From positions 1 to 40,571 of the forward strand of contig CAIMDZ010000049.1 in NCBI GenBank assembly GCA_903839875.1: a stretch of DNA of 40,571 nt. The letters run 5' to 3'. The position numbers were made by a program, and so were the translations under genes. The stretch's first letter is position 1, and the number at the start of each line of letters is the position of its first letter. Below the pieces are notes generated by a model, which made no database searches, was not told the DNA's origin, and was given only the letters and a program-made list of their open reading frames with translations. Positions 5,767 through 21,176 of this stretch are shown piece by piece. This DNA is from an uncultured Bacteroidota bacterium. Lineage in GTDB: Bacteria; Bacteroidota; Bacteroidia; Chitinophagales; Chitinophagaceae.

Positions 5767-6534
5767 TCAAAGGTCTTTCTTCCTGAATTTCCTTACTGAT
5801 AAGAATAAAGGAATAACGATCCAGAACATCATGCAGGCGAATACATAAATACTGCCGGTGGCTGACCCAAGGAATTTCTTGAACAGTGCGCCTGAATAAC
5901 CCATCATTACGGCGACATCCAATTGCAGTAAAACCAATATCCTGCCCAGGTCAACAGGGTTTAATGATATCATCCCCAATAATGGTTTCTCAATGGGGTA
6001 GTCGCTGAATGAGTAAATGAAGGAGAGCAGCAGGCCATCAAAGAGCAATGTAAAGAACAACGCGATAATTATGGCTGCGCCAATACCCTTTGTTTTGTCT
6101 TTGAATAAAACAAAGATCAATAATGCAAGCGCTGAAAAAATAAGCGAAAGAAACAGGCCGCTGATGATAAGCGTCAGTGCCGCCGGTCCATAAGAAAATA
6201 TACATACCGGCACCCCTATACCTATGATATAAGCAATACCCAATGCGAAAGCCACACCGGTATACGAGGCAAGCAGCATGGTTTTACGCTTTATGGGTTG
6301 TGCCAGCAGCAACTCGGTGAATTCAATGCTGTTGAAAAAATAAATGGTAGAGAATAGTATGCTGATAATGGGAACAAATAACAGGGTAATATTCAGCAGG
6401 CTCAGCAATCCCTTAGTGGCATTGCTGCCCATACTCAGAACACTTACCGACAATGCCGCGAGAATAATTGTATATACAATTATGGTCTTGTTTTTCAACA
6501 GGTCGAGTAATACGTATTTTATGATGGTTCTCAT
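5767..6534 (-). CDS. nosY: NosY-type ABC transporter permease
   Basis: A 255-residue membrane protein with about six hydrophobic segments and the N-terminal pattern of ABC-2 type permeases (IIKYVLLDLLKNKTIIVYTII). It is the last gene of the nos operon and pairs with the NosF ATPase encoded just upstream. NosDFY is needed to mature the tetranuclear CuZ site of N2O reductase, probably by moving a sulfur species across the membrane. The 89-bp gap to nosF holds a palindromic repeat, whereas nosF and nosD overlap, so the repeat probably inserted within the operon. Confidence 0.88.
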   Translation of the reverse strand: MRTIIKYVLLDLLKNKTIIVYTIILAALSVSVLSMGSNATKGLLSLLNITLLFVPIISILFSTIYFFNSIEFTELLLAQPIKRKTMLLASYTGVAFALGIAYIIGIGVPVCIFSYGPAALTLIISGLFLSLIFSALALLIFVLFKDKTKGIGAAIIIALFFTLLFDGLLLSFIYSFSDYPIEKPLLGMISLNPVDLGRILVLLQLDVAVMMGYSGALFKKFLGSATGSIYVFACMMFWIVIPLFLSVRKFRKKDL

Positions 6535-6554
6535 TTGTTTGGTTTTGGTTGCCG

Positions 6555-6616
6555 GTTAGGTGTGCCACACTTCGGAAGTGGTTAGGTGTGCCACACTTCG
6601 GAAGTGTGGCACACCT
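6555..6616. repeat. Tandemly duplicated palindromic element between nosF and nosY
   Basis: A 26-bp unit starting GTTAGGTGTGCCACAC is present twice in direct tandem (6555-6580 and 6581-6606). The second copy continues into a perfect palindrome with 16-bp arms, AGGTGTGCCACACTTC (6584-6599) and its complement (6601-6616), with a single G between. The core is shared with 5732-5762. It lies in the transcribed region and could form a stable stem in the nos mRNA. Confidence 0.8.
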
Positions 6617-6623
6617 TGCAGAT

Positions 6624-7352
6624 TCATTGCGCATATATTGTTTTGGGCATTTCTTTCTGCATGATGCTTGCAATTACTTTATTCAGTTTTTCTTCACCTG
6701 TTTGTTGCCGCAGTTCTTCCACGGTTTTGTAAAACATCAGGTGGCCGTCCTGCAGGTATACTATATGGCTGGTGATGTCTTCCACATCGCTCAACACATG
6801 CGATGTGATCAGGATCAATTTCCCGTTTGCCCGCTCCTTCGCTATTTTATCTTTCAGGAATTCACTGGATACAGGGTCCAATCCTGCCGTAGGTTCATCG
6901 AGTATGAAAATATCAGGTGAAAAAAGAAAGGCAAGACAGGCGCTCACCTTCTGCCGTGTGCCCCCCGATAAGCTCCGCATTGTTTTATTCAGGAAGCCCG
7001 GTATGCCCAGTCCGTGTATCAGTTCTTCATCATATTGTTTGCAGTCCTTTCTTATTTCCTTCAGCATATTTATCACCTGGCCCACCGTCATATTATCCGG
7101 GTAGCGGCCTATCTGCGGCATATACCCAATCTGCGAGCGGTAGGCAAATTGTGTTTTTATTTCAGTACCGTTTATTCTAATAATTCCCTGCTCAGGTATC
7201 ACCAATCCCAGTATAGACTTAATAAGCGTAGTCTTCCCCGACCCGTTTGGTCCAAGCAAAGAGATCGTCTGCCCGCGCTCAAAATTCAGGCTGATATCAT
7301 CAAGCGCCTTAAACTTACCGTATGATTTCGTCAGGTGTTCTATTGATATCAT
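6624..7352 (-). CDS. nosF: NosF-type ABC transporter ATPase
   Basis: A 242-residue nucleotide-binding protein with Walker A GPNGSGKTT, signature LSGGTRQKVS, Walker B IFILDEPTAGLD and the H-loop in TSHVLSDVE. It powers the NosDFY system that matures N2O reductase. Its start overlaps the nosD stop by 4 bp, so translation is probably coupled. Confidence 0.93.
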   Translation of the reverse strand: MISIEHLTKSYGKFKALDDISLNFERGQTISLLGPNGSGKTTLIKSILGLVIPEQGIIRINGTEIKTQFAYRSQIGYMPQIGRYPDNMTVGQVINMLKEIRKDCKQYDEELIHGLGIPGFLNKTMRSLSGGTRQKVSACLAFLFSPDIFILDEPTAGLDPVSSEFLKDKIAKERANGKLILITSHVLSDVEDITSHIVYLQDGHLMFYKTVEELRQQTGEEKLNKVIASIMQKEMPKTIYAQ

Positions 7353-8590
7353 AGCTTCAGTTTTTTCATCATTGGGTTATCATCCTTCAGTTTGTCAGGT
7401 ATCATTGTTGGTAATACTTTTTCTACCTTATCCATTATGTCAGTCAGGAAACTGTGGTACAGAATCATCGCATCAGGTATTTTCTCCGTGACCACTGAAT
7501 AGACGCTGACAGGATAGTACGGTACGTCGCCTATATTGTTCTTGTCAAGGTCATAGCCGTCATATTTATCCCAGTAATTGTGGTTGAAAAAATTAAGCAT
7601 CAGTGTCCCGTTTGTAGCTACATCAAAAGAGTTGCCGATAAAGTTGTTTTCCATAAAGTTACTACCGCTGCAACTTGCCTGCACCCTCAGCGCCCATCCG
7701 TTATCTTCAAACAGGCAATGCTTTACATCCACACGCGTAGTGCCTTCCATATGAATGCCTACTGTATTTTTAAGAAAGTGGTTGTGTTCTATTTTACTGT
7801 CCGTAATTTCTTTTAGCAAAAGTCCATAGGAGGCATCTCCCCAGTTGTGTATGAATTCATTGTCCTTCATGATTACCCCATGCGAATACATTACAGCTAC
7901 ACCCGCGCCATTGTCTTTGAATATATTGTGGGTGTAGGTATCATCATGCGAAAACATAAAATGAAGTCCGTACCGGAGGTTGCTGTAAGAATTGTTGTCC
8001 TCAATGTGTGAGTCGGTTACAAATTCAAAGTAGATCCCATCACGTTGCCCGGTGCAGGTATTTCCTTTCACAAGCAGATGATCCGACTTCCATGCATGCA
8101 CTCCGTTCCCGTTATTTATTTCGCTGGTGGATCTGGATTGAATAATATTATTGAAGACATAACAATAGGAAACATTCTGAAGGTATACACCGTAGGTATT
8201 GTCGGTCAGTTTATTATTCCTGATGGTAACAAAACGTGCATTAATAATTTTAATCCCGGCAATATCTGTTGTGCTGGCTCTTCCGGTATTTTGTATTTGT
8301 AACCCTTGTATGGTTACTGAATCCGCGCTGATGATAAATCCCTGGTATTTATTTTCTGCGTCAATTACCGGATACCCAATACCGATAATCGTGATTTTTG
8401 TTGTGACCACAATATCATGCTCCTTATAAACACCACTTTGTATAAACAAAGTATCGCCCTTGTGTGCAGCGGCGATTGCATTGCGGATACTGTTGGCAGT
8501 AGCATAAACTTTCAGGTTACTGGCGTAACATACCTTGCCAGGCAGGCATAGATATAGCGTCAAAAATGTAAAAGCCAGTATACTGTTCAT
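7349..8590 (-). CDS. nosD: NosD, periplasmic copper-site maturation protein
   Basis: A 413-residue protein with an N-terminal signal peptide (to about residue 23) and repeated short beta-helix turns (for example VTIRNNKLTDNTYGVYL and SHIEDNNSYSNLRYGLHF), typical of the right-handed parallel beta-helix of NosD. It works in the periplasm with NosF and NosY to assemble the CuZ centre. It starts 3 bp behind nosL and overlaps nosF. Length is normal for the family. Confidence 0.93.
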   Translation of the reverse strand: MNSILAFTFLTLYLCLPGKVCYASNLKVYATANSIRNAIAAAHKGDTLFIQSGVYKEHDIVVTTKITIIGIGYPVIDAENKYQGFIISADSVTIQGLQIQNTGRASTTDIAGIKIINARFVTIRNNKLTDNTYGVYLQNVSYCYVFNNIIQSRSTSEINNGNGVHAWKSDHLLVKGNTCTGQRDGIYFEFVTDSHIEDNNSYSNLRYGLHFMFSHDDTYTHNIFKDNGAGVAVMYSHGVIMKDNEFIHNWGDASYGLLLKEITDSKIEHNHFLKNTVGIHMEGTTRVDVKHCLFEDNGWALRVQASCSGSNFMENNFIGNSFDVATNGTLMLNFFNHNYWDKYDGYDLDKNNIGDVPYYPVSVYSVVTEKIPDAMILYHSFLTDIMDKVEKVLPTMIPDKLKDDNPMMKKLKL

Positions 8591-8593
8591 TGA

Positions 8594-9022
8594 TTAGTTC
8601 AGGTTTTCCCACTTTAAAAACTCAGAATTCAAACTATCTTTCAACGAATTCAAATTAGCAGCTGATGAAAAAGCTGCCAGGTTACCATTCATTGGTGATT
8701 TAAATAGTTCGCTGTGTAAATATACAACCTGGCGGGCATCTAAAAACTTGCCGTCGGCATTATTATAGTCGGCGATGAAAACCATAAGGTCTGTTTCCGG
8801 GAGGTTTTCTTCCTTTATATATTTTTTGAGGCAGGCAATATCATCAAACTTGAATGTCTTTCCTTTCTTTGTAACTATCTCTGCAGCATAACGTTTATCC
8901 ATTATAGTCATTTTGCATTGCATGCACGCATCGTGTCCATAATTGATTGGTTCAAATTCAGGCTTGCATGAGGTGAAGCTTAGAATAACAAGTAGTGTAG
9001 TAACTAAAACTGATGTTTTCAT
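8594..9022 (-). CDS. nosL: NosL copper chaperone lipoprotein
   Basis: A 142-residue protein with a lipoprotein signal (LSFTSC, Cys19) and the NosL hallmark HDACMQCKMTIMD, whose CxxCxM residues bind Cu(I). It delivers copper to apo-NosZ at the outer face of the membrane. Its start codon overlaps the stop of the membrane protein gene upstream by 4 bp, and nosD follows 3 bp later. Confidence 0.95.
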   Translation of the reverse strand: MKTSVLVTTLLVILSFTSCKPEFEPINYGHDACMQCKMTIMDKRYAAEIVTKKGKTFKFDDIACLKKYIKEENLPETDLMVFIADYNNADGKFLDARQVVYLHSELFKSPMNGNLAAFSSAANLNSLKDSLNSEFLKWENLN

Positions 9023-9597
9023 TTTGCAACTTTTTTCCTCCCTTCATAAACACACATACCAAGCAATATCACGCCTGCGGCAATATAAAACCAGCCTGCA
9101 ATATCGGGCTGAGACAATGCTTCGAAATTCAGCATTTTCTTATACCCAACCAATGGCGGCGTGTAAGACATGTCCGGGATCTTTATCGGGGCAGTCGGGT
9201 CAAGGTTGTGACCGTAATTATATTCCCACTTATAAAAATCATAAAACGAAAAGATCCCGATAAAAGCGAATAATCCTGTCCAAATGTAATAGACAAACTT
9301 CCTGTTCAGTAACAAGACCACCAAACCAAGCCCCATAAATATGAGCATCATTGTCGGCAGGAAAATAAACTCAGGAAAGTCTTTTTTATGAATTGTCTTC
9401 ATACCGATGTAATGATTCAATCCATTGATTATGTCCACATCTCCCTTCACATCATTGATCCATATTTTCATAGATAATCCACCGGGATACTGCGGGGCCC
9501 TCAGGTCTATCTGCCACATCGGCAGGAACCATAAGGTTGCTAAACAGCCGATCACAATGAAAATACTGATCTTCCCTGGTAATGTTAACTTTTTCAT
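9019..9597 (-). CDS. Nos-cluster membrane protein of unknown function
   Basis: A 192-residue protein with four likely membrane helices (about residues 10-27, 78-97, 104-122 and 164-184) and an outward loop around MWQIDLRAPQYPGGLSMKIW. I do not recognise a named family, but similar proteins sit between nosZ and nosL in Bacteroidota nos clusters. Histidines in GLNHYIGM and a conserved-looking PGGL...W segment would suit a metal or quinone role, which is speculation. It overlaps nosL by 4 bp, and a strong terminator separates it from nosZ. Confidence 0.75.
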   Translation of the reverse strand: MKKLTLPGKISIFIVIGCLATLWFLPMWQIDLRAPQYPGGLSMKIWINDVKGDVDIINGLNHYIGMKTIHKKDFPEFIFLPTMMLIFMGLGLVVLLLNRKFVYYIWTGLFAFIGIFSFYDFYKWEYNYGHNLDPTAPIKIPDMSYTPPLVGYKKMLNFEALSQPDIAGWFYIAAGVILLGMCVYEGRKKVAK

Positions 9598-9622
9598 CTG
9601 AAAATATTTGTCTTTATAGCGG

Positions 9623-9717
9623 TTCCCGATAGCTATCCGGGAGAGCTCCCTGAACTTCTGAATGTTGCCAACAGCAGGATATTTATTGGTCTGTGTGCTT
9701 CCCGATAGCTATCGGGA
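9623..9717. repeat. Two CCCGATAGCTATCGGG-type palindromes
   Basis: A perfect copy, TCCCGATAGCTATCGGGA, lies at 9700-9717, and an imperfect one with an extra C at 9623-9642 runs into a second small dyad, GGGAGAGCTCCC (9639-9650). The same palindrome occurs at 18037-18056, and a half copy at 4766-4777. Both copies lie in the leader between nosZ and the downstream nos genes. This looks like a dispersed genomic palindrome family. Confidence 0.75.
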
Positions 9718-9743
9718 CAACATTAGCATGGGCGCTTCATAGT

Positions 9744-9787
9744 GATAAAAAAAATGGTAATGCTGAATGATATCAGCATTACCATTT
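9744..9787 (-). terminator. Strong intrinsic terminator behind nosZ
   Basis: A perfect 15-bp stem (AAATGGTAATGCTGA at 9752-9766 with its complement at 9773-9787, loop ATGATA) begins 10 nt after the nosZ stop. On the minus strand it is followed at once by a run of T. It should stop much of the nosZ transcript before nosL-D-F-Y. Confidence 0.85.
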
Positions 9788-9797
9788 GTACGGATAA

Positions 9798-11768
9798 TTA
9801 TTTTTTTGCTGCAGTATCAGCGACAACACCAGTACTGAATTTCAAAGGAACATTGCTGCCTTTTGGAGATACTCTTAAGTACCCTGACATTTCCTGGTGC
9901 AGAGCAGAGCAGAAGTCCGTGCAATAGAACGGATAAATTCCCTGTCGTGTTGGTATGTATTTCAATGTTACTGTTTCGCCCGGCATGATAAGCAGTTCAG
10001 CCCCCGGGTTATTCTTAATAGCAAATCCATGTGGAATATCCCAATCCTGTTCCAGGTTGGTAACATGGAAGTAAACTTCATCGCCCACATAAACACCTTC
10101 AATATTATCAGGCGTTAAATGCGAACGTATAGCAGTCATCCACACATCTACCCTATTTCCGTTACGAACTACATTGGTTTTCTTTTCACCCATTGCTACA
10201 AATTCATGATGGTTTTTGTTGATGTCAAAGAATTTAACCTGTTTATCCCTGATTAATGATGCAGGGCATGCCTGTGCATAGTGAGGTTCTCCTATAGTAG
10301 GGAAGTCAAGCAGCAATTGCATTTTTTCACCTGATATGTCAAATAATTGTGCCGACTGGCAAAGTTCAGGGCCAGTAGGGAGGTAACGGTCTTTTGTAAT
10401 TTTGTTATAAGCTACTAAATATTTGCCCCATGGTTTTTTTGTATCGCCACCGGGTACCATTAAATGGCCTACTGAATAAAAGGTTGGAGCCCTGTCAACT
10501 ACCTGGAGATCACTCAACCTCCACTTCACTACTTCTGATGAAAGGAACATAGATGTATATGCATTTCCATGATCATCAAATTCTGTATGCAAAGGTCCAA
10601 GGCCTGGTTTCTTTACTTCACCATGTAACGCAGCTTCATATTTAATAACTGGTATGCCATAAAAGTCGCCTTCAAATTGTTTATCAGCGATAGCCTTCGT
10701 AATTTTTGCAAATGAAAATACAGGAATTAAAGCAGCCAGTTTGCCACTGCCAACTATATATTCTCCGGTTGGGTTTACATCGCAACCATGAGGAGATTTC
10801 GGGCAGGGTATCATATATACCATATCAGGACAATCTTTAGGGTCTAATACCAACACTTCCTTTTCCATTGTTGAAGTAGCAATTTGTTTATCTTCATCAT
10901 AGGTATTGTGCGCATACTCTGCAGGTACCTTTTTCCCCTTGCCTGCTTTTGCATATTCTTCAGCTTTTTTCCAGTTTACCGCAACAATAAAGTCTTTATC
11001 TTTCTGAGAAGCATTTACCTCGAGCAAGGTATATGCTTGTTCTGTATTATAGCAGGAGAAGAAAAACCAGCCATGAGAAGGTCCTTTACCGGCTCTGCTA
11101 AGGTCAAGATTCATTCCCGGAAGCATAATCTGGAAAGCAATGCTCATATGCCCCGTAGTTTTATCTACGCTAATGAATGATGCAGTACTTTTAAAATTTT
11201 GTTTAAAAGAACTTATTGGCACATCCTCTTCGCCTAAAGGCACAGAAAATCTTGTTCCGGCCACAACATACTCTGTATTTTCTGTCAGGAACGGAGAAGA
11301 GTGGTTGCCTGCGCTATTTGGAAGTTGCAGAATTTCCATGGTTTTAAAGGTTGTTAAATCAATCCTGGCTACACGGGGTGTGTTATTGGCATTTGCAAAA
11401 ATCCAACGTCCGTCTTGTTCACCGTTTGTCTGTGATAACATGAGGTGGTGCTGGTCATCCCATGGCACTGATCCATTGGAAGTGTTCAGCATAGGTTTGG
11501 TTTCTTCATTGTAGCCGTACCCGTTTTCGGGGAACATAGAAAATACAGGGATGACTTTCAATAGCCTGCCCGATGGAAGGCCGTATACAGTAACCTGTCC
11601 GCTAAAACCGCCGGATACGAAGTTGTAGAACTCATCATATTTTCCGGGTGCAACATATACTTTTGAGGCAGCATCGCCTTGCACAGCCGATTCCGCACTT
11701 TTCATTTTACAGCTTTGCATACTTGCAATTGCAGCAACCGAGCAAAGTGTGAGGATGATCTTTTTCAT
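9798..11768 (-). CDS. nosZ: Nitrous oxide reductase, clade II (Sec-exported)
   Basis: A 656-residue protein that reduces N2O to N2 in the periplasm. The signal region is MKKIILTLCSVAAIASMQSC, without a twin-arginine motif, which marks clade II. An N-terminal seven-bladed propeller holds seven candidate CuZ ligands: H107, H108, H156, H327 (SPHGCD), H394 (GPLHTEF), H435 (GHLMVPG) and H496 (EPHYAQA). The C-terminal cupredoxin domain holds CuA ligands H580, C616, C620, H624 and M627 in CTDFCSALHQEM; Phe619 stands where Trp is usual. The region between H156 and H327 is longer than in clade I enzymes. It follows the cytochrome gene by 28 bp. Confidence 0.97.
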   Translation of the reverse strand: MKKIILTLCSVAAIASMQSCKMKSAESAVQGDAASKVYVAPGKYDEFYNFVSGGFSGQVTVYGLPSGRLLKVIPVFSMFPENGYGYNEETKPMLNTSNGSVPWDDQHHLMLSQTNGEQDGRWIFANANNTPRVARIDLTTFKTMEILQLPNSAGNHSSPFLTENTEYVVAGTRFSVPLGEEDVPISSFKQNFKSTASFISVDKTTGHMSIAFQIMLPGMNLDLSRAGKGPSHGWFFFSCYNTEQAYTLLEVNASQKDKDFIVAVNWKKAEEYAKAGKGKKVPAEYAHNTYDEDKQIATSTMEKEVLVLDPKDCPDMVYMIPCPKSPHGCDVNPTGEYIVGSGKLAALIPVFSFAKITKAIADKQFEGDFYGIPVIKYEAALHGEVKKPGLGPLHTEFDDHGNAYTSMFLSSEVVKWRLSDLQVVDRAPTFYSVGHLMVPGGDTKKPWGKYLVAYNKITKDRYLPTGPELCQSAQLFDISGEKMQLLLDFPTIGEPHYAQACPASLIRDKQVKFFDINKNHHEFVAMGEKKTNVVRNGNRVDVWMTAIRSHLTPDNIEGVYVGDEVYFHVTNLEQDWDIPHGFAIKNNPGAELLIMPGETVTLKYIPTRQGIYPFYCTDFCSALHQEMSGYLRVSPKGSNVPLKFSTGVVADTAAKK

Positions 11769-11796
11769 TGTATTTTATTTGAGGTGTGAGAGAAAA

Positions 11797-12285
11797 CTAA
11801 TTTTTGCCATCATTATTACGCATGAATTCAAGTATGTTACGGGCATCATCATCGGTCAGATGCTGGTTGGGCATACGCACCATACATTTCTCCAGTAAGG
11901 CCTGAGCTGCCGGATCTTTATCTATCATCTCATCCGTGTTGGTAGCGAAATTCATGATCCATTCCGGCTTTCTTCTGTCGGTTACACCTTTCCAGCCCGG
12001 GCCTACCAGTTTTTCATCAGAAAGTTTATGGCACGCACCACATTTCACATCGTATATGGCTTTGCCACCTCCTATCATTTTCTGATCCAGCGGATGTGTA
12101 AGTTCTACATTTGTGAACTTGCCTTTACCTTTCGAATCATCAGATGTAACTGCTACACCTGTTTTATCACCAGGTTCTTTCTTGGTAGAATTTGCCGGTG
12201 TTTCAGATGCCGGTTGATTTGATCCGCAGCTTAACATAAATAAACATGCGATAAATGTTGCTGCCAGGAGGTGTTTCCTATTCAT
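11797..12285 (-). CDS. Lipoprotein monoheme c-type cytochrome
   Basis: A 162-residue protein from the ATG at 12285 (an in-frame TTG at 12312 would add nine residues). It has a lipoprotein signal (LFMLSCGS), a low-complexity Ser/Lys linker and a class I cytochrome domain with CGACH for heme c and a later MVRMPNQ segment that can supply the axial Met. It is the first gene of the nos operon and most likely passes electrons to NosZ, as cytochromes do in other clade II clusters. Confidence 0.92.
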   Translation of the reverse strand: MNRKHLLAATFIACLFMLSCGSNQPASETPANSTKKEPGDKTGVAVTSDDSKGKGKFTNVELTHPLDQKMIGGGKAIYDVKCGACHKLSDEKLVGPGWKGVTDRRKPEWIMNFATNTDEMIDKDPAAQALLEKCMVRMPNQHLTDDDARNILEFMRNNDGKN

Positions 12286-12322: not shown

Positions 12323-12330
12323 CAAAATTC
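12323..12330 (-). promoter_or_regulatory. -7 element of the nos operon
   Basis: Read on the minus strand this is GAATTTTG, one mismatch from TAnnTTTG. If transcription starts about 5 nt later (near 12318), the dyad at 12352-12367 is centred at -41.5, the class II activator position. The spacing rule is assumed, not measured. Confidence 0.45.
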
Positions 12331-12351: not shown

Positions 12352-12367
12352 TATGACGATGGTCATA
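12352..12367. promoter_or_regulatory. Crp/Fnr-like dyad before the nos operon
   Basis: TATGACGATGGTCATA is a perfect 6-bp inverted repeat with a 4-bp spacer. The GAC-N4-GTC centre is that of NNR/DNR/HcpR-type sites in other bacteria (TTGAC-N4-GTCAA). It recurs in variant form at 12659, 13755, 18176 and 18199. The regulator itself is not encoded in the window. Confidence 0.6.
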
Positions 12368-12658
12368 AAAAAAAGATATTTAGGTCTTTTTTGTTAGTAA
12401 TTTTTATCAGAAGAGTTATTTTGAACATTATATATGAATTTATTAATCATAGATAGCTGATGGTATTTAATTATTTTATAAAATGGAAAAGCGAAACTAG
12501 AAATTAACATTAATTTTATAAATGTTATCAATCAGTACCTATACTGATATTGATCATTGCTAAACGGAGTAAAAAATTAATCATTTGCACAATAAATATG
12601 TTCTATTAGCTGGTTTATATTATAATAGAAACGCAAATAAAGACCTTTATATCCGCAA

Positions 12659-12703
12659 TATGACCACAATCATGTTTTTTGATTGTAGAAAAAAATAATT
12701 TCA
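12659..12703 (+). promoter_or_regulatory. Crp/Fnr-like dyad and -7 element before the fasciclin gene
   Basis: TATGAC-CACA-ATCATG lies at 12659-12674, and TAATTTCA (four of six fixed -7 positions) at 12696-12703. The distance puts the dyad at about -41.5 from the expected start, as at the nos promoter. Confidence 0.4.
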
Positions 12704-12739
12704 ACCGGTTAATTTTTTAAACAATTAAATATACATCAA

Positions 12740-13303
12740 ATGAAAAAACAATTTTTAATGATTGCAGCTTGTCTGTTGTCAATGACAATTTCCTGCAACA
12801 ATGAAGGATCTTCTGATAAGGAGAAAGCCCCGGCTGAAAATGCATATCAATCTTCAGCCAAAACGGAGATAAAGGATGATGTTTCACAGAAAGATGTCGT
12901 TCAGGTGGCTATGGGCAGCAAAGACCATACAACACTTGTGTCTGCAATCAAGCAAGCAGACCTGGTTGATGTGCTAAAAAAATCAGGACCTTTTACCGTG
13001 TTTGCCCCCACCAATGCTGCATTTGATAAACTACCCAAGGGTACTCTTGATGATCTTATGAAACCTGAGAAAAAAGATGCACTGGCTGATATTCTGCAGT
13101 ATCATGTATCCGTAGGTATTTATAAAGAGGACATGCTTACCGATGGAAAATCTTTGGGCCAGGTCAATTCCCAAAACATAACTATTACCAACAAAGACGG
13201 GAAAATAAAAATAAATGGCACAGCCAATATTGTAGGTACCGTGTCAGCTTCAAACGGTATTATTTATATTATTGATGAAGTGCTGTTGCCACCCAAAAAG
13301 TAA
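12740..13303 (+). CDS. Fasciclin-domain lipoprotein
   Basis: A 187-residue protein with a lipoprotein signal (LLSMTISCNN, Cys19), a charged linker to about residue 55 and one fasciclin domain. Visible FAS1 motifs are TTLVSAIKQADLVDVL, GPFTVFAPTNAAFDKLP and the C-terminal NGIIYIIDEVLLPP. FAS1 domains mediate adhesion or ligand binding at the cell surface; the ligand here is unknown. The upstream Fnr-like dyad suggests co-regulation with nos. It is transcribed alone: a strong terminator follows. Confidence 0.92.
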   Translation: MKKQFLMIAACLLSMTISCNNEGSSDKEKAPAENAYQSSAKTEIKDDVSQKDVVQVAMGSKDHTTLVSAIKQADLVDVLKKSGPFTVFAPTNAAFDKLPKGTLDDLMKPEKKDALADILQYHVSVGIYKEDMLTDGKSLGQVNSQNITITNKDGKIKINGTANIVGTVSASNGIIYIIDEVLLPPKK

Positions 13304-13328
13304 TCCAGGTTTTATCAGGAGTGTACTA

Positions 13329-13360
13329 CTGCCGGAAGAAATAATTTCCGGCAGTTTTTA
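13329..13360 (+). terminator. Intrinsic terminator after the fasciclin gene
   Basis: A perfect stem CTGCCGGAA (13329-13337) / TTCCGGCAG (13346-13354) is followed by TTTTTATTATTAT. It lies 26 nt after the stop. Confidence 0.9.
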
Positions 13361-13754
13361 TTATTATACTTCACGCGGTATTGATTCAGTGCAAAAAAAG
13401 TTTCACGCAAAGTCGCAATCATTCCTTTGACAGGGACCAGATAATAGAGTTTTTAAGCTCGCAAACCCCGTATGTTAATTACACTAACTTATCCCGTTTG
13501 CAGTATATATCGCAAGCCTGATGGAATTTTAATTTGTAATTATCAGGTCGGTTCAGCAATCGGTTCGCACCACATGATTTGCATTATTCAGACTGAAAAA
13601 CGTTGCAGATAATTAGTGACTTCAATTGTATTTTCCGGTTTAAAATTATAGCAATCAATAAATTATCGCCGAAATGACGTAAAATTACCATCAAATTGAG
13701 GTGCTGATATAATGATGCATGGGTAATTGTTAAATTTAACCGTAATTTCCTAAT
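13361..13754. other. Intergenic stretch without recognised content
   Basis: About 390 bp, AT-rich, with frequent stops in all frames. I see no gene and no RNA fold that stands out. Confidence 0.6.
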
Positions 13755-13770
13755 AATGATCATAGTCATA
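13755..13770. promoter_or_regulatory. Crp/Fnr-like dyad before the 608-residue gene
   Basis: AATGAT-CATA-GTCATA has five-base half sites ATGAT/GTCAT with a 4-bp spacer. The -7 region expected at about 13792-13799 (GACCTTCA) is a weak match. The site lies 57 bp before the start codon. Confidence 0.4.
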
Positions 13771-13826
13771 GTAAACTGAACAAAATTGAACGACCTTCAC
13801 ACGTTAAATTGTGATTTAAAACCAAA

Positions 13827-15653
13827 ATGTTCGAAAAAATGAATAAATCTTTGCTACATACTTTTCATATACCGGTTCTTGGATTGAGCTATTCTGTTGA
13901 TACACCTGTGAAGGTAGCCCGATATGGGATATCATCAGTTGTCTCGATCATAGAAGATGAACTGATAGAGAAAATGAGAGAATATCACTGTGGCCGGTCG
14001 AATGAAGAATATATCGCGATTACAGTTAAAGATGAGAATTACAGGGCACGCAGAATTACTGCGTATTTAAACTTGCTCGACAGGATCGTAAAAAGGCAAA
14101 TAAAAGAACTGAAAACACTTCCTTTTGAACCCGGCAGTGACATTGTGAAATATTTCGAACTTCTGCCGGATCATTCTGAGATAAGGAAGGAGTATGAACA
14201 AGTGAACGCATTGCCGGATAGCAACGAAAAGAAATTGTTGCAAAACAGGTTAAGGCAAAAGATTAAGGCAGGTTCGATTGATGTAAATATTATGTCGAAA
14301 ATTGACAACCTGAGTTATGCCAGTGATGGAACCCCGCTTCCACCCGAATTTTCCGATGCACTTGCTGCTTTAAGGGGTTATGCCAACAGTAGTCTGCATT
14401 CTTCAGTGGTATTATCAGCCGGGTATAATCCCCGTTTATATTCTTACATCGAAAACTTTAGTGACTTCTTTCCTGATGGTGATGGGAACATGCGGAAGAA
14501 GATCATACTGAAGGTAAGTGATTACCGCTCTGCATTAATACAGGGAAAGATACTGGCCAAAAAAGGCATCTGGATTTCAGAGTACAGAATTGAATCCGGA
14601 TTAAATTGCGGTGGGCATGCTTTTCCAACCGACGGATATTTGTTAGGCCCTATTCTTGAAGAATTCAGACAGAAAAGGGCAGACCTTGAAAATGAATTAT
14701 TCAATTTGTGCAACAGCGCCAACCTCGCCAAGGGTAATAACATCTTTGCTTCGAAACCAGGCATTAAAATTACGGTCCAGGGCGGAATAGGCACAGCTAA
14801 TGAAGACAATTTTTTACTCGACCACTATAAAATGGATGGTACCGGTTGGGGAAGTCCGTTCCTGTTAGTGCCTGAAGTTACCAACGTGGAAGAAAATACA
14901 CTACAGCAATTAGCAACTGCCGAGCAGGAAGACTACTATCTCAGTGGCGCTTCACCATTGGGTGTACCGTTTAATAACTTCAGAAAGAGCACCTCGGAGA
15001 AGCAAAGACTGGAACGCATAAATAAAGAAAGACCCGGAAGTCCATGCTATAAGAAATTCCTTTCTTCGGATACGGAATTTACTACCACACCTATATGCAC
15101 TGCATCCCGCCAATACCAGGATTTGAAAATTAAGCAACTCGAGGAAAAAAATATTTCACCTGAACAATATACCCTAGAACTAAACGCCATCATTGAAAAG
15201 GATTGCCTGTGTGAAGGGCTGAGTTCATCAGTATTACTGAAAGATCATATTCCGGTTGCCCATAGTCTTTCGGCTGTGGCCATTTGTCCTGGTCCGAATC
15301 TTGCCTATTTCTCAGGTGTTTTTTCATTGAAGGAAATGGCAGATCATATTTATGGCAGGATAAATATTCTCAACTCAAGAGACCGCCGGAATATGTTTAT
15401 CAATGAACTCCAGCTTTATGTTGATTACTTAAAAACAGCGGTAGGGAAAAGTTTAGATGAAATGACTGTAAAACAAAACAGGTATTTACAGAATTTTAAG
15501 GCAAACCTGCAGGACGGGATCAACTATTATCACGACCTCATACCCAGCATAAAAAAAGAAACACAACACTATAAGGATAAAATGATAAACGAATTAAAAT
15601 CGTTTCAAAATCTCCTGAGTTCCATTAGTATTCCATCCCCGGCAATTATTTAA
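13827..15653 (+). CDS. Unrecognised 608-residue protein, possible FMN/TIM-barrel plus Fe-S
   Basis: A soluble protein with no signal peptide. The N-terminus (HIPVLGLSYSVDTPVKVARY) and a later VQGGIGTANEDNF...GTGWGSPFLLVPEVTNV recall flavin-binding TIM barrels such as nitronate monooxygenase or glutamate synthase, where GGIGT contacts phosphate. GLNCGGHAFPTDGYLLGP (about 258-275) is a striking invariant-looking motif. Cysteines C407, C424, C460, C462 and C487 could ligate an Fe-S cluster. The last 100 residues look coiled-coil. A Fnr-like dyad precedes it and putA follows after 29 bp. The function is unknown; a redox enzyme is my inference. Start: ATG at 13827 or, 12 bp later, at 13839. Confidence 0.75.
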   Translation: MFEKMNKSLLHTFHIPVLGLSYSVDTPVKVARYGISSVVSIIEDELIEKMREYHCGRSNEEYIAITVKDENYRARRITAYLNLLDRIVKRQIKELKTLPFEPGSDIVKYFELLPDHSEIRKEYEQVNALPDSNEKKLLQNRLRQKIKAGSIDVNIMSKIDNLSYASDGTPLPPEFSDALAALRGYANSSLHSSVVLSAGYNPRLYSYIENFSDFFPDGDGNMRKKIILKVSDYRSALIQGKILAKKGIWISEYRIESGLNCGGHAFPTDGYLLGPILEEFRQKRADLENELFNLCNSANLAKGNNIFASKPGIKITVQGGIGTANEDNFLLDHYKMDGTGWGSPFLLVPEVTNVEENTLQQLATAEQEDYYLSGASPLGVPFNNFRKSTSEKQRLERINKERPGSPCYKKFLSSDTEFTTTPICTASRQYQDLKIKQLEEKNISPEQYTLELNAIIEKDCLCEGLSSSVLLKDHIPVAHSLSAVAICPGPNLAYFSGVFSLKEMADHIYGRINILNSRDRRNMFINELQLYVDYLKTAVGKSLDEMTVKQNRYLQNFKANLQDGINYYHDLIPSIKKETQHYKDKMINELKSFQNLLSSISIPSPAII

Positions 15654-15682
15654 AAAGTAAATAAGCGAACAAAAGTAAGTTT

Positions 15683-16861
15683 ATGAAACCCGATTTCAAT
15701 AATACAGAAATAGCATTTAAGTATCGTACTGACAGTGACATGAAACGTGCGCGCTTCTTGTTTTCTTTTATGGCCTCACCTTTCCTCACCAAATTCGGGA
15801 TAGGCGCCGCAAAATTAGGCATGGCATTGCATATGCCAATAAAGGGGTTGTTAAAGAGTACCATATTCAGCCAGTTTTGTGGCGGAGAAACACTGGAAGA
15901 AACCGCCCATACATCTGAGGTTATCAGCAGGTATAATGTGGAGACCATACTCGACTATGGGGTAGAAGGAAAAGAAAGCGACGAAGAATTTGACAAGGCT
16001 GTGCCTGAGTTTATCAGGGCCATTGATTATGCGGCTTCCCAAAAACATATTCCATTCATCAGCCTGAAGATAACAGGATTTGCACGGTTTGGATTACTGG
16101 AAAAGATACATTCAGGACAATCATTGACCATGGACGAGACGGCAGAATGGAAGCGTGTGCATGATCGTATTGATAAAATCTGCGGAGCCGCCGCCGGGAA
16201 ACGTATTATGGTACTCATTGATGCTGAAGAAACATGGATACAGGAACCATGCAACCAGCTTACAGAGGCAATGATGGAGAAGCACAATCTGAAGGAAGCA
16301 ATTGTGTTTAATACTTACCAGTTTTACAGCCATGGCACCTTACCTTTTTTAAAGTATGCGATAGACCAGGCAGTACAAAAGAAATACATACTCGGCGCGA
16401 AACTCGTAAGGGGAGCCTATATGGAGAAAGAAAGGGAGCGTGCAAAGCAAATGGGATATGAAGACCCTATTCAACCAGATAAGGCGAGTACAGACCGCGA
16501 TTATGATGCCGGCGTATTGCTATGCCTGCAAAATCTTGATAAGCTTGCTGTCTTCATAGGAACGCATAATGAGAAGAGTTGCGCGGATACTACTACATAT
16601 ATGGATGCGCATGGCATTATACCCAACCATCCCAGGGTGTTCTTTTCCCAGCTCTACGGCATGAGCGATAATCTTTCTTTCAATCTTGCCCATTCTGGCT
16701 ACCTTGTTTCCAAGTACCTGCCGTATGGCCCGGTAAAAGATGTGATACCCTACCTCATGCGCCGCGCAGAAGAGAACACCTCTGTCGCCGGACAAACAAG
16801 CCGTGAGCTTACTATGATCAACAACGAGATAAAAAGAAGGAGAAAATTATTAGTACGTTGA
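15683..16861 (+). CDS. putA: Proline dehydrogenase
   Basis: A 392-residue monofunctional flavoenzyme that oxidises proline to pyrroline-5-carboxylate and passes electrons to quinone. Diagnostic pieces are KLVRGAYMEKER, FIGTHNEKS, FFSQLYGMSDN and the C-terminal YLMRRAEENTS, which carries the substrate-binding Arg pair. The P5C dehydrogenase domain of bifunctional PutA is absent, as usual in Bacteroidota. The 29-bp gap to the 608-residue gene suggests co-transcription from the Fnr-like site. It converges with queD. Confidence 0.94.
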   Translation: MKPDFNNTEIAFKYRTDSDMKRARFLFSFMASPFLTKFGIGAAKLGMALHMPIKGLLKSTIFSQFCGGETLEETAHTSEVISRYNVETILDYGVEGKESDEEFDKAVPEFIRAIDYAASQKHIPFISLKITGFARFGLLEKIHSGQSLTMDETAEWKRVHDRIDKICGAAAGKRIMVLIDAEETWIQEPCNQLTEAMMEKHNLKEAIVFNTYQFYSHGTLPFLKYAIDQAVQKKYILGAKLVRGAYMEKERERAKQMGYEDPIQPDKASTDRDYDAGVLLCLQNLDKLAVFIGTHNEKSCADTTTYMDAHGIIPNHPRVFFSQLYGMSDNLSFNLAHSGYLVSKYLPYGPVKDVIPYLMRRAEENTSVAGQTSRELTMINNEIKRRRKLLVR

Positions 16862-16868
16862 AGAATGA

Positions 16869-17222
16869 TCACCCCGTATAAATAGCTCCCGAAGTAGGCG
16901 TTTCATTCAATTCTATTTTACTGAGTAAGGGCAAACCGGGTTTTACCTTATTCCAGATCCATTCAGCCAATAATTCACAGGTCGGGTTTTCCAGCCCCGG
17001 TATGTTATTGAGCATTTTATGGTCGAGCATATCTACCACCGGCCCTACCACCTGTTTTATGTCTGCAAAGTCCATTACCCAGCCCAGTTCTTTATCTAAT
17101 GGTCCGTCCAGGAAAATAGTCAGATGATAGGTATGACCGTGTATTTCCCTGCATTTATGTGTTACCGGCACTTTACTCAGAAAATGTGCCGAATCGAAGG
17201 TGAATTGCTTAAAGATAACCAT
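16869..17222 (-). CDS. queD: 6-carboxytetrahydropterin synthase / PTPS family
   Basis: A 117-residue protein of the T-fold PTPS/QueD family. Zinc ligands are H13 (FDSAHF), H28 and H30 (EIHGH), and C24 (HKCREIHGH) is the catalytic cysteine. The CxxxHGH arrangement fits QueD, which makes 6-carboxytetrahydropterin for queuosine. The late ENPTCELLAEWIW and the conserved Glu in IELNETPTSGA also fit. It follows the YhbP-like gene by 21 bp on the same strand. Confidence 0.9.
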   Translation of the reverse strand: MVIFKQFTFDSAHFLSKVPVTHKCREIHGHTYHLTIFLDGPLDKELGWVMDFADIKQVVGPVVDMLDHKMLNNIPGLENPTCELLAEWIWNKVKPGLPLLSKIELNETPTSGAIYTG

Positions 17223-17243
17223 TTGAATACCGGGGTTGATTTT

Positions 17244-17684
17244 TTACAAAGCTAATTCTTCTGCCAGCTTTTTCCATGAACGTTTGTAACCAAAGCCTTT
17301 TGAATTATCAGTAAATTTTACATATTGAAATTCTACTATCCATATTTTTCCAGGCATGGCCATAGCTATAGGATTTTTGGAATAGTAGGCCGAGGCTGCG
17401 GGTGTCAGCGAATCCTCATCTTCTTCATAGGCAACCCCTTCAAATTGAATGCCACGTATAGCTTCAGGATTAAAATTGTCGGGCAAAATAGTGCCTGCAA
17501 CTCTGTTGTTCCGCATCAACAGGTCGCCATGTCTGGTATTGGCCGATGATTTAAAGACAATATGGCCTTCCTTTTCAAATACCGTATATAGTACATTGAA
17601 GCAATAAGGTAAATCGCCTGAGCAACAACAGATAGTGGCTACCTGGTTAGCCGTAATAAATTCGGTTATTTCTTTTTCTACCAT
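17244..17684 (-). CDS. YhbP-like flavin-binding split-barrel protein (UPF0306)
   Basis: A 146-residue protein of the pyridoxamine-phosphate-oxidase-like split barrel. The N-terminal helix EKEITEFITANQVATICC, the RHGDLLMRNNRVAGTIL segment and the C-terminal KGFGYKRSWKKL agree with the YhbP/UPF0306 group in order and length. FMN binding is expected from the family; the substrate is unknown. It is probably co-transcribed with queD. Confidence 0.75.
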   Translation of the reverse strand: MVEKEITEFITANQVATICCCSGDLPYCFNVLYTVFEKEGHIVFKSSANTRHGDLLMRNNRVAGTILPDNFNPEAIRGIQFEGVAYEEDEDSLTPAASAYYSKNPIAMAMPGKIWIVEFQYVKFTDNSKGFGYKRSWKKLAEELAL

Positions 17685-18175
17685 AGTGGGTACTATTTTG
17701 CTTTTCGTCTGTTATTGGTTGGCGGCCTTTGGGAGGATATAGCTGATTTTTTCCCTGACCGGGCACAATTCTGCTGGCTGCTTTTACAGCTTAAATACTC
17801 TGCATAAAATTTCAGGTAAGCTTCCATCTTCAATGCTTCCTGGTCATCACATGCTTTCATACACTTCTTTATTTATCAGATGCTCCTGGCTCTTATAAGT
17901 TTAACGCTTACAGGCCCTGCTTATTTGCCGGTGGGCGTTAAAAAAAAGTTACAGTCTATCGCCTTTCTCTGATTAGTGAAGATGATAAAATAAATCCTAC
18001 AATTTGACTGCTCTTTTCCATTTCTGCTTCGTTGCAATCCCGATAGCTATCGGGATAAATATATTGATATTCGCAGATTTTGCGCCTCGCATAAAAGAAA
18101 AATAACCATCCAACTTCGCAGGATTTATTTTGTATCTTCACTTAGGCAAAAAAATGCATAATAGCGTTAGGAAAA
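17685..18175. other. Intergenic stretch with one dispersed palindrome
   Basis: A perfect 20-bp palindrome, ATCCCGATAGCTATCGGGAT, spans 18037-18056 and matches the copies near 9623-9717. I found no gene in the rest. Short open frames here lack coding character. Confidence 0.6.
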
Positions 18176-18214
18176 TATGACTGTAGTCACAGCCGGGCTA
18201 TGATTTAGGTCATA
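18176..18214. promoter_or_regulatory. Two Crp/Fnr-like dyads before tryptophanase
   Basis: TATGAC-TGTA-GTCACA (18176-18191) and TATGAT-TTAG-GTCATA (18199-18214) are 23 bp apart centre to centre, about two helical turns. A TTTG at 18239-18242 could be the 3' half of a -7 element; the second dyad would then be at -41.5. The first would be near -64.5. Confidence 0.5.
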
Positions 18215-18220
18215 CTTTAT

Positions 18221-18238
18221 TAAGACAGAAATGTCTTA
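18221..18238. promoter_or_regulatory. Rrf2-type operator over the tryptophanase promoter
   Basis: TAAGACA-GAAA-TGTCTTA is a perfect dyad with the same AAGACA-N4-TGTCTT core as 405-432. It lies between the activator-like dyad and the presumed start of transcription, where a bound repressor would block polymerase. It overlaps the ATG at 18231, which is one reason to place the start codon at 18273. Confidence 0.5.
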
Positions 18239-18272
18239 TTTGCGCCTTGTTAGAAACTTTGATACAATAATT

Positions 18273-19649
18273 ATGGAATTCAAAACAATTATTGAGCCTT
18301 TTAAGATCAAGTCGGTTGAGTCAATACATATGTCAACTGAGCAGGAGCGTATTGCATACCTCGAAAAAGCACATTACAATCCTTTCCTTCTAAAGTCGCA
18401 GGAAGTGATTATTGACCTGCTTACCGACAGCGGCACATCGGCCATGAGCAATGAACAGTGGGCGGGCATTATGCGCGGCGATGAATCGTATGCAGGCGCA
18501 AAAAGCTGGGAACGGCTGGAGTTCGAAATAAACGACCTTACCGGTTATCCATACATACTGCCTACCCACCAGGGCAGAGCTGCAGAACACATTTTATACA
18601 GCTATCTCGGAGGTGCAGGTAAGACCTTTATCAGTAATACTCATTTCGATACTACCCGCGCCAACATCGAGTTCAACGGTGCAACAGCAATTGATATACC
18701 CACACCTGCAGCAAAGGACCGCAATTCCAGCGATCCATTTAAAGGCAATCTGGATACCACAAAGCTGGATTCATTGCTGGCAGAGACCGGGTCTGATAAT
18801 ATCGGCGCTGTAATTCTTACTGTTACCAACAACAGCGGCGGCGGACAGCCTGTGAGCATGCAGAATGCGATTGACGTTTCGGCGATCTGTAAAAAACACA
18901 ATGTCCTCTTCATCCTTGATTGTTGCCGTATTGCCGAGAATGCTTACTTCATCCGCCATTTCGAGAAAGGTTATGAAAGCGTTACCTACCGCGAAATTGC
19001 AGAACAGATGTTTTCACTGGCTGATGGCGCTATTATGAGCGCCAAGAAAGATGCCCTGGTAAACATGGGTGGCTTCCTTGCAGTGAGGAACGAGGCGCTT
19101 GCCGAAGCCTGCACCAGCCTGCTCATTATCAATGAAGGGTTCTCCACTTATGGCGGCCTGTCGGGCAGGGATATGGAAGCCATTGCTATCGGCCTTCGCG
19201 AAGTGTTTGATGCCGACTATCTTAATTACCGCATTAAGAGTACCCGCTACCTTGGTGAGCACATGAGGGAAAAGGGAGTGCCCGTAATTTACCCAATCGG
19301 CGGCCATGCTGTTTATGTGGATGCAGGTTTGTTGTACCCTCATATACCAACCGATCAATATCCCGGCCAGGCTCTTGTTTGTGAACTTTACAAGATTGGC
19401 GGCATACGTGCAGTAGAGATCGGTTCAGTAATGTTCGGCAAGTATGATGAGGATCAAAAGCTGGTTCCCGCCCCTATAGAACTTGTCCGGCTGGCCATCC
19501 CCCGCCGTGTTTATACCCAAAGTCATATAGATTATGTGATCGAGGTTTTTGACGAGATCATCAGAAATGCCAAAAATACGAGGGGGTTGAGGATAACCAA
19601 AGAACCAAAATTCCTGAGGCACTTTACCGCGCATTTTGAGCCGATGTAA
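18273..19649 (+). CDS. tnaA: Tryptophanase
   Basis: A 458-residue PLP enzyme of the beta-eliminating lyase family. The PLP lysine lies in DGAIMSAKKDALVNMGG; other family pieces are PTHQGRAAEHIL, LTVTNNSGGGQPVSM, LDCCRIAENAYFI and VELVRLAIPRRVY-like PIELVRLAIPRRVY. MSAKKDA favours tryptophanase over tyrosine phenol-lyase (MSGKKD), though VNMGGFL recalls the latter. It converts tryptophan to indole, pyruvate and ammonia. The start at 18273 (MEFKTIIEPFKIK) fits the family; an ATG at 18231 would lie inside an operator. Confidence 0.93.
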   Translation: MEFKTIIEPFKIKSVESIHMSTEQERIAYLEKAHYNPFLLKSQEVIIDLLTDSGTSAMSNEQWAGIMRGDESYAGAKSWERLEFEINDLTGYPYILPTHQGRAAEHILYSYLGGAGKTFISNTHFDTTRANIEFNGATAIDIPTPAAKDRNSSDPFKGNLDTTKLDSLLAETGSDNIGAVILTVTNNSGGGQPVSMQNAIDVSAICKKHNVLFILDCCRIAENAYFIRHFEKGYESVTYREIAEQMFSLADGAIMSAKKDALVNMGGFLAVRNEALAEACTSLLIINEGFSTYGGLSGRDMEAIAIGLREVFDADYLNYRIKSTRYLGEHMREKGVPVIYPIGGHAVYVDAGLLYPHIPTDQYPGQALVCELYKIGGIRAVEIGSVMFGKYDEDQKLVPAPIELVRLAIPRRVYTQSHIDYVIEVFDEIIRNAKNTRGLRITKEPKFLRHFTAHFEPM

Positions 19650-20704: not shown

Positions 20705-20900
20705 TTATTTTTAATGGGTTTGTCATCTTCACTTTGTTGCTTGTCATTGCATCTGTAACGTGTAAGATACATAAGACAGCGAAACTAAAGACATCCCCAT
20801 CCTTTCGTTCATCAAAAAATTGGTTTATAACGGACTTGCTGACCAAAATCATAAAAATGATTTAAATATCTTTTTAGGTTAGCGGCAATCCCACAATCTT

Positions 20901-21176
20901 ATGCTTTATACATTGCTTTCTTACCTGGTTCCTTCGGCTATCTTTTTATATATAGTATGCGGCTATGAAGGAAGAGACCTGAAAAAGAAATTCAGGAAAT
21001 TAGGTGATCTGTCGCGGATGAAAAAGGAACAGATCATTGAAAAAGCAGGTAAGCCGGATTCTGTAGCCGGATTAGCCAATGGTATGCAATTATTGGAATG
21101 GCGCAGATTTGGGTACAGAATAGACATAAAATTCGATTACGAAAATAATTTTATAGGCATCAGCCAGGAAAGCTGA
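20901..21176 (+). CDS. Small membrane-anchored protein with a BamE-like fold
   Basis: A 91-residue protein with an N-terminal membrane segment (LLSYLVPSAIFLYIVCG). The following LSRMKKEQIIEKAGKPDSVAG...LLEWRRFGYRIDIKFDYENNFIGI resembles SmpA/BamE-type domains (two helices, then a three-stranded sheet with a 'GKP' turn). The function is unknown. It stands alone between gluQ and truB. Confidence 0.55.
   Translation: MLYTLLSYLVPSAIFLYIVCGYEGRDLKKKFRKLGDLSRMKKEQIIEKAGKPDSVAGLANGMQLLEWRRFGYRIDIKFDYENNFIGISQES

Follow-up and report, generated by a model that had tools for sequence, protein, structure and literature searches.

Several promoters in a 40,571-nucleotide stretch of DNA from an uncultured Bacteroidota bacterium of the family Chitinophagaceae (assembly GCA_903839875.1, contig CAIMDZ010000049.1; hereafter the window) are preceded by the inverted repeat ATGAY-N4-RTCAT. 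Judged from their sequence, these dyads are conserved Crp/Fnr-type operators, common to the nitrous oxide (N2O) reductase (nos) operon, a fasciclin-domain gene, a gene for an unannotated 608-residue protein that is followed by putA, and the tryptophanase gene tnaA. This operator probably couples N2O respiration to the use of amino acids when oxygen is low. Bacteroidota with clade II nosZ genes are regarded as N2O sinks, and to our knowledge the switch that turns on their nos genes has hardly been described. We consider it probable that a Crp/Fnr activator binds at the class II position of Bacteroidota sigma-A promoters to control a low-oxygen regulon, and that the likeliest main reader of the operator is a protein that we call FnrA.

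A first-pass annotation, made from the letters of the window and its open reading frames (ORFs), had listed five such dyads. All five are present (Table 1), although each starts one position further right than first given; the sites at 12353, 12660, 13756 and 18200 are exact, whereas that at 18177 carries one mismatch. Four exact sites in 40.6 kb compare with 0.23 expected from the off-spacing density of the genome (P ~1e-4). One-mismatch copies alone are weak evidence, because the window holds 15 matches when one mismatch is allowed, against a shuffle mean of 6.6. The statement that the window contains no further good copy was not quite right, since a candidate before a 91-residue ORF had been missed, and another dyad between nos and the fasciclin gene is symmetric also in a relative, though it lacks a good -7 box.

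Table 1. Dyads, -7 boxes and genes of the window, with the genes for two candidate regulators elsewhere in the genome
Feature	Position	Strand	Detail or basis
nos operon	5767..12285	-	Pfam; NosZ Sec-dependent (clade II) by NCBIfam; also NosL, NosD, ABC ATPase, ABC permease
Unmatched ORF in nos operon	9019-9597	-	
NosZ	9798-11768	-	
Cytochrome c in nos operon	11797-12285	-	
nos -7 box	12323..12330	-	GAATTTTG, 5/6; G 36.5 bp from dyad centre
nos operator	12353..12366	-	ATGACCATCGTCAT, exact; pattern match
Extra dyad between nos and fasciclin	12544..12557	+	CTGATATTGATCAT; pattern match
Dyad before fasciclin gene	12660..12673	+	Exact; pattern match
Fasciclin -7-like box	12696-12703	+	TAATTTCA, 4/6, at 36.5 bp
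Fasciclin-domain protein gene	12740..13303	+	Pfam
Dyad before 608-residue gene	13756..13769	+	Exact; pattern match; weak -7 box GACCTTCA, 3/6
608-residue protein gene	13827..15653	+	FabX/PfaD/FabK-like TIM-barrel fold
Proline dehydrogenase (PutA-like), second gene after 608-residue gene	15683..16861	+	Pfam
Distal tnaA dyad	18177..18190	+	ATGACTGTAGTCAC, one mismatch; 23 bp upstream of proximal dyad
Proximal tnaA dyad	18200..18213	+	ATGATTTAGGTCAT, exact; pattern match
tnaA -7-like box	18235..18242	+	CTTATTTG, 4/6; G 35.5 bp from proximal dyad centre
tnaA (tryptophanase)	18273..19649	+	
Additional candidate dyad	20839..20852	+	CTGACCAAAATCAT; box TAGGTTAG, 5/6, at 36.5
ORF behind it (91 residues)	20901-21176		No Pfam match
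fnrA	G000:C66:37945-38643		Adjoins genes for a multihaem cytochrome and ResB/cytochrome assembly
fnrB	C24		Precedes ferredoxin and NrfD genes

Enrichment and promoter geometry

The genome from which the window derives (5.29 Mb in 226 contigs, 97% complete) holds 76 exact occurrences of ATGAY-N4-RTCAT. The same half-sites at spacings N5 to N14 give 301 occurrences over ten spacings, or about 30 each, and the N4 form is therefore in 2.5-fold excess (Poisson P 2e-12), a surplus of about 46 sites compared with the mean of the other spacings. We relied on these other spacings because a control that used the backward pattern (24 versus 76) proved unreliable, with values that span 0 to 100 across genomes, and was discarded. 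Although ORFs, as delimited by a simple ORF caller, make up 85% of the fetched DNA, 53 of the 76 sites lie outside them. The whole-genome search that the first-pass annotation had proposed, with its comparison to random and coding DNA, thus comes out in favor of the motif.

The Bacteroidota -7 box, TAnnTTTG, spans -12 to -5 in Flavobacterium psychrophilum, according to PMC9723704. Among 79 oriented upstream sequences, the distance between the G of TTTG and the dyad centre is 36.5 bp in 16 cases, versus 3 at 35.5 and 5 at 37.5. The complete TAnnTTTG box occurs 11 times at 36.5, 4 times at 37.5 and 5 times at 58.5 (that is, 22 bp beyond), whereas the 68 other offsets yield a mean of 0.18 and a maximum of 2. 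Given a G at 36.5 bp and a box at -12 to -5, the dyad centre falls at -41.5, and hence the operator is located at the class II position (~-41.5) relative to the predicted transcription start. A box of at least 5/6 lies in register on one side of 36 of the 62 sites that extend no more than 60 nucleotides inside an ORF, compared with 6, 6, 2 and 6 for the four offsets used as controls, and such a box accompanies 2 of 14 coding sites. When the outer bases are left free, TCAT ends 28 of the 29 intergenic sites that have a perfect box, including 10 of the 11 whose outer bases differ, in stretches that had been selected around exact sites.

Within the window itself the -7 element that had been noted at class II spacing is modest (5/6, 4/6, 4/6 and 3/6 for nos, fasciclin, tnaA and the 608-residue gene), while genome-wide and in orthologues it is strong. 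The tnaA gene is given here from 18273; an ATG at 18231 would precede the predicted transcription start.

Conservation and extent of the regulon

NosZ, TnaA and the 608-residue protein were sought in 60 genomes (the window's own, 34 of the same genus and 25 others), and the DNA upstream of each gene was scanned, with the window locus included in each set. An exact N4 dyad precedes nosZ at 20 of 23 loci, the 608-residue gene at 14 of 24 and tnaA at 12 of 26, whereas any other spacer from 0 to 12 is found exactly at 0 or 1 locus per set. Allowing up to one mismatch raises the N4 counts to 22, 21 and 21, respectively, against maxima of 9, 8 and 5 for other spacers. The dyad is joined by an in-register -7 box of at least 5/6 at 9/23 nosZ, 14/24 608-residue and 15/26 tnaA loci. 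We encountered no dyad at the 608-residue loci of G017, G040 and a G010 fragment, at the tnaA loci of G046, G047, G043 (two) and G052, or at the nosZ locus of G053. The 24 loci of the 608-residue set were drawn from 26 fetched, two of which start within the gene; the tnaA set represents 25 distinct loci, L151 being scored as the same gene as L131; and the nosZ set contains two loci from G014. For nosZ, dyads were counted between -950 and -500 only. Dyads near -1412 at several nosZ loci fall at the end of a nos-linked Crp gene, where by our reasoning they are probably protein-coding, and they were excluded.

A second set consists of named loci of the 608-residue family (the best 80 of at least 580 confirmed), of which 77 were scored and three had too little upstream DNA; at least four of the 80 (L222, L224, L226, L278) are apparently relatives already counted. 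An exact N4 dyad is present at 23 of these 77 loci and one with up to one mismatch at 50, while no other spacer exceeds 2 and 13, respectively. Loci with a dyad are titled Bacteroidota or bear names of genera such as Pedobacter, Dyadobacter, Mucilaginibacter, Pontibacter and Runella, among others. None was found at the named loci titled Ignavibacteria, Chlorobiota or Omnitrophota, nor at several titled Bacteroidota.

Closer relatives preserve individual sites. G008, whose NosZ is 96% identical, retains both the nos dyad and the fasciclin dyad, each with no more than one mismatch, and its fasciclin promoter has a 5/6 box, TATATTTA, at 36.5. The dyad at 12544 reads CTGACTTAGGTCAT in G008, CTGAT..ATCAT having become CTGAC..GTCAT with both halves altered together; this paired change is only mild evidence because the surrounding region is also fairly similar. 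The distal and proximal tnaA dyads recur as a pair in G028, with the identical mismatch. Footprinting in related genomes, as had been suggested at the outset, therefore reveals a motif that is conserved upstream of the orthologous genes with the N4 spacing only.

We also observed that the nearest relatives of the three genes differ: for the 608-residue gene it is in G011 (70%) and for tnaA in G028 (84%), both genomes without FnrA, and for NosZ it is in the FnrA-bearing G008. The operator may therefore travel with horizontally exchanged genes. Separately, the place taken by the fasciclin gene in the window is occupied in G002, G011, G012, G024 and G032 by a small Crp-family gene that runs divergently from nos.

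A Pfam run on 50 first genes behind sites indicates how far the regulon might extend. Those with an in-register box of at least 5/6 include genes of energy, iron and stress metabolism (pyruvate:ferredoxin oxidoreductase, NuoA, FeoA, Nramp, cytochrome c, two universal stress proteins and AhpC), metabolic enzymes (GcvP, ornithine aminotransferase, a cysteine-synthase-like enzyme, a hydroxyacyl-CoA dehydrogenase fusion and 3-dehydroquinate synthase), an NHL-repeat protein, MlaE, EF-G and several unmatched genes. Weaker or shifted boxes precede a ferredoxin gene followed by 2-oxoacid:ferredoxin oxidoreductase, as well as genes for a B12-binding protein, HemA, a paired-CXXCH protein, an HgmA-like protein, succinyl-CoA synthetase, a second hydroxyacyl-CoA dehydrogenase and an acetyl-CoA hydrolase family protein. 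An FNR-type regulator would be expected to control energy and iron genes; some members, such as EF-G and 3-dehydroquinate synthase, are off this theme. The amino-acid targets bear out and widen the point made from tnaA and putA. The link first drawn between nos, tnaA and putA accordingly stands in that all share the operator, but it is not special to them, being part of the genome-wide regulon. Proline breakdown is covered only insofar as putA lies behind the 608-residue gene, and it appears to be an occasional member: among 106 loci of the 608-residue family, 9 have a PutA within the flanking DNA that was fetched.

The operator gives this unannotated family a testable role. The 608-residue protein folds like FabX-type flavoenzymes, sharing the catalytic His in the flavin barrel, and the link rests on this fold. 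The protein differs from FabX of Helicobacter pylori (as described in PMC8626469) in its low identity (18%) and its length (608 versus 366 residues), and the five invariant C-terminal cysteines of the family are spaced differently from C300, C304, C308 and C320 of the FabX [4Fe-4S] subdomain. A profile search of the family against solved structures matched only a coiled coil, apolipoprotein A-I, and did not match FabX.

An ORF-free stretch elsewhere in the genome (4026-4930 of L069, G000:C221:100-8900) carries five successive dyad promoters, all of which have a perfect TAnnTTTG box at 36.5. Four of the five have a GC-rich hairpin and a run of T residues 66-77 nucleotides past the predicted start, and the fifth also has a hairpin. 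This arrangement has the appearance of a tandem small-RNA array under Fnr-type control. All Rfam matches to L069 fall below the gathering score (STnc40, 28.4 of 45; FopS, RF04319, from Bacteroidetes, 24.2 of 56, E 0.68).

The reader of the operator and competing explanations

The genome encodes six HTH_Crp_2 proteins. Two of them, FnrA and FnrB, exceed the Pfam cut-offs for PF00027 (cNMP-binding-type sensor) and PF13545 (Crp-type helix-turn-helix). Cysteines C9, C12, C17 and C109 are invariant in 11 of 11 FnrA and FnrB proteins; C109 aligns with the central cysteine of FNR, and the three N-terminal cysteines correspond by place only. The recognition helix of FnrA, TEQVSR, aligns with VETISR of FNR (E--SR), a signature that FnrB lacks. 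Orthologues of FnrA, at 48-56% identity, are present in 7 of the 35 genomes of the genus, this one included, and in 0 of the 25 others, with G030 giving a match at 30% only. FnrA is borne by all six genomes in which the N4 excess is largest (76, 85, 62, 59, 66 and 61 found, versus 30, 36, 25, 28, 33 and 32 expected), a coincidence with a hypergeometric P of 4e-6 if kinship is ignored. Furthermore, a dyad with at most one mismatch stands before fnrA in all seven. The proximal one, ATGACNNNNCTCAT, is accompanied by a perfect -7 box at 36.5 in six of the seven, and a distal dyad, also in six, lies 22 bp from the proximal one in the five that have both. Dyads before fnrA would suit a master regulator that activates itself.

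For the reader protein, the oxygen signal and the activation step, we infer the following scheme. FnrA, being of the FNR type, is expected to carry an oxygen-labile [4Fe-4S] cluster. When oxygen falls, binding of FnrA to ATGAY-N4-RTCAT and its contact with RNA polymerase at the -7 box would activate fnrA itself together with some tens of promoters. Its targets would include N2O reductase, cytochromes, pyruvate:ferredoxin oxidoreductase, iron uptake and the FabX-like enzyme, and, for amino-acid catabolism, tnaA, gcvP, ornithine aminotransferase and the putA that lies behind the 608-residue gene. This scheme predicts that N2O uptake by these bacteria is accompanied by amino-acid breakdown, including that of tryptophan to indole, and the fixed geometry of operator and promoter would allow the low-oxygen regulon to be read from genomes and metagenome bins. 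We regard with some doubt a broader proposal, in which a general Bacteroidota low-oxygen operator at -41.5, read by FNR-type proteins with Thr180, joins N2O reduction, amino-acid fermentation, FabX-like synthesis of unsaturated fatty acids (desaturases being short of oxygen) and the small-RNA array. A threonine at Crp position 180 is common to FnrA and to a second type of protein, REC-Crp, considered below. PMC1274295 ties that position to base 3 of the operator, the one that distinguishes ATGA from TTGA. Thr180 may specify A at this base.

Several observations weigh against FnrA as the reader of this regulon. The co-occurrence of FnrA with motif richness takes no account of phylogeny, and G003, the remaining genome with FnrA (82% complete), is just 11th in motif excess. 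FnrA is absent from 28 of the 35 genus genomes, many of which still have dyads before nosZ, tnaA or the 608-residue gene (G002, G010, G011, G012 and G032 among them). The operator differs from the canonical FNR box, chance alone would give about 30 of the 76 sites, and two window promoters have poor -7 boxes. In addition, the fnrA frame (L031:2736-3065) has no in-frame ATG, GTG or TTG before 3066 (residue 108), although homology begins near 2745, well ahead of it; the gene may use an uncommon start codon, or the assembly may contain a sequence error here. Candidates for the reader in genomes without FnrA are a REC-Crp fusion, the Crp gene divergent from nos, or a further cysteine-bearing Fnr (G010, G018, G022, G034). 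The first-pass annotation had named one Fnr-type regulator for all these units. A Crp/Fnr-type operator is indeed common to them, but a single reader is unproven, because there are six HTH_Crp_2 proteins and relatives without FnrA keep their dyads. The earlier interpretation was therefore of the right kind and is partly supported, although too narrow in scope and too definite on a single regulator.

We rejected FnrB as the main reader, since its helix has Gln in place of Glu and lacks the Arg, and since we found its orthologues in just four genus genomes (G000, G008, G020, G029). Two exact tandem dyads lie upstream of its gene, and FnrB would be a target and possibly a partner.

Two gene pairs in this genome (L038:4740-7570 and L011:2647-4936) each encode a PAS histidine kinase and a REC-Crp protein, in a FixLJ-like arrangement in which the Crp DNA-binding part is fused to a receiver. 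It is unlikely, though deserving of attention, that this fusion, phosphorylated by the adjoining kinase, is the chief reader and that FnrA shares the operator where present. Of the 13 genus genomes examined, 12 encode a full-length REC-Crp (a contig end truncates it in the other), its helix TESLIR has Thr-Glu and Arg in common with FnrA, PAS kinases adjoin both copies, and such a reader would account for the dyads in genomes without FnrA. However, REC-Crp genomes that lack FnrA, nosZ, tnaA and the 608-residue gene (G001, G004, G007, G009, G016) have N4 ratios of 0.93-1.43, or little to no excess. Moreover, G017 appears to bear REC-Crp yet has no dyad before its 608-residue gene, and upstream of the 12 full-length REC-Crp loci in relatives there is no exact dyad accompanied by a good -7 box.

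Another explanation, which we consider quite improbable, is that the activator senses carbon or energy status, as Crp or MalR does, such that starvation rather than low oxygen induces N2O respiration and amino-acid catabolism together. The catabolic targets (gcvP, ornithine aminotransferase, hydroxyacyl-CoA dehydrogenase, tnaA and putA) would fit such a signal, and Crp/Fnr proteins of Flavobacteriales and Saprospiraceae are assigned to carbon sensing in PMC8510549. Yet the FNR-like cysteines are conserved in FnrA and FnrB, and the targets include pyruvate:ferredoxin oxidoreductase, FeoA, cytochromes, nos and universal stress proteins. Finally, we reject the notion that the dyads are chance palindromes in AT-rich intergenic DNA, to which we give almost no credence. 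Common one-mismatch copies in the window and the two poor -7 boxes there would be compatible with chance, but the spacing controls, the intergenic bias, the phasing of the -7 box and the N4-only conservation in orthologues are not.

Comparison with known systems

FNR is an oxygen-sensing activator of the Crp/Fnr family with the box TTGAT-N4-ATCAA. The system described here resembles it in the TGA-N6-TCA core, the class II position, four cysteines, an E--SR helix, targets of an anaerobic type and dyads before the regulator's own gene. The conserved operator ATGAY-N4-RTCAT differs in having A rather than T as its outer base and Y at the fifth position, and FnrA has Thr instead of Val preceding the recognition Glu. 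With 45.5 bits FnrA scores far below the 228-bit cut-off of the NCBIfam FNR model PRK11161, and FnrB, with 83.2, is below it as well. In searches of the open literature we recognized no description of this operator in Bacteroidota, which does not prove absence.

Two further systems are described in PMC1274295. HcpR2 of Bacteroides and clostridia is a Crp/Fnr regulator known within the phylum, whose operator is GTAACnnnnGTTAC and whose regulon is hcp only in most species there; the sites conserved here do not match the GTAACnnnnGTTAC half-site. DNR of denitrifying Pseudomonas and beta-proteobacteria, with operator CTTGATnnnnATCAAG, is likewise a Crp/Fnr activator with dyads before nosZ. In contrast, the outer bases of CTTGATnnnnATCAAG are not matched by the operator described here, and the targets of the latter extend far past denitrification.

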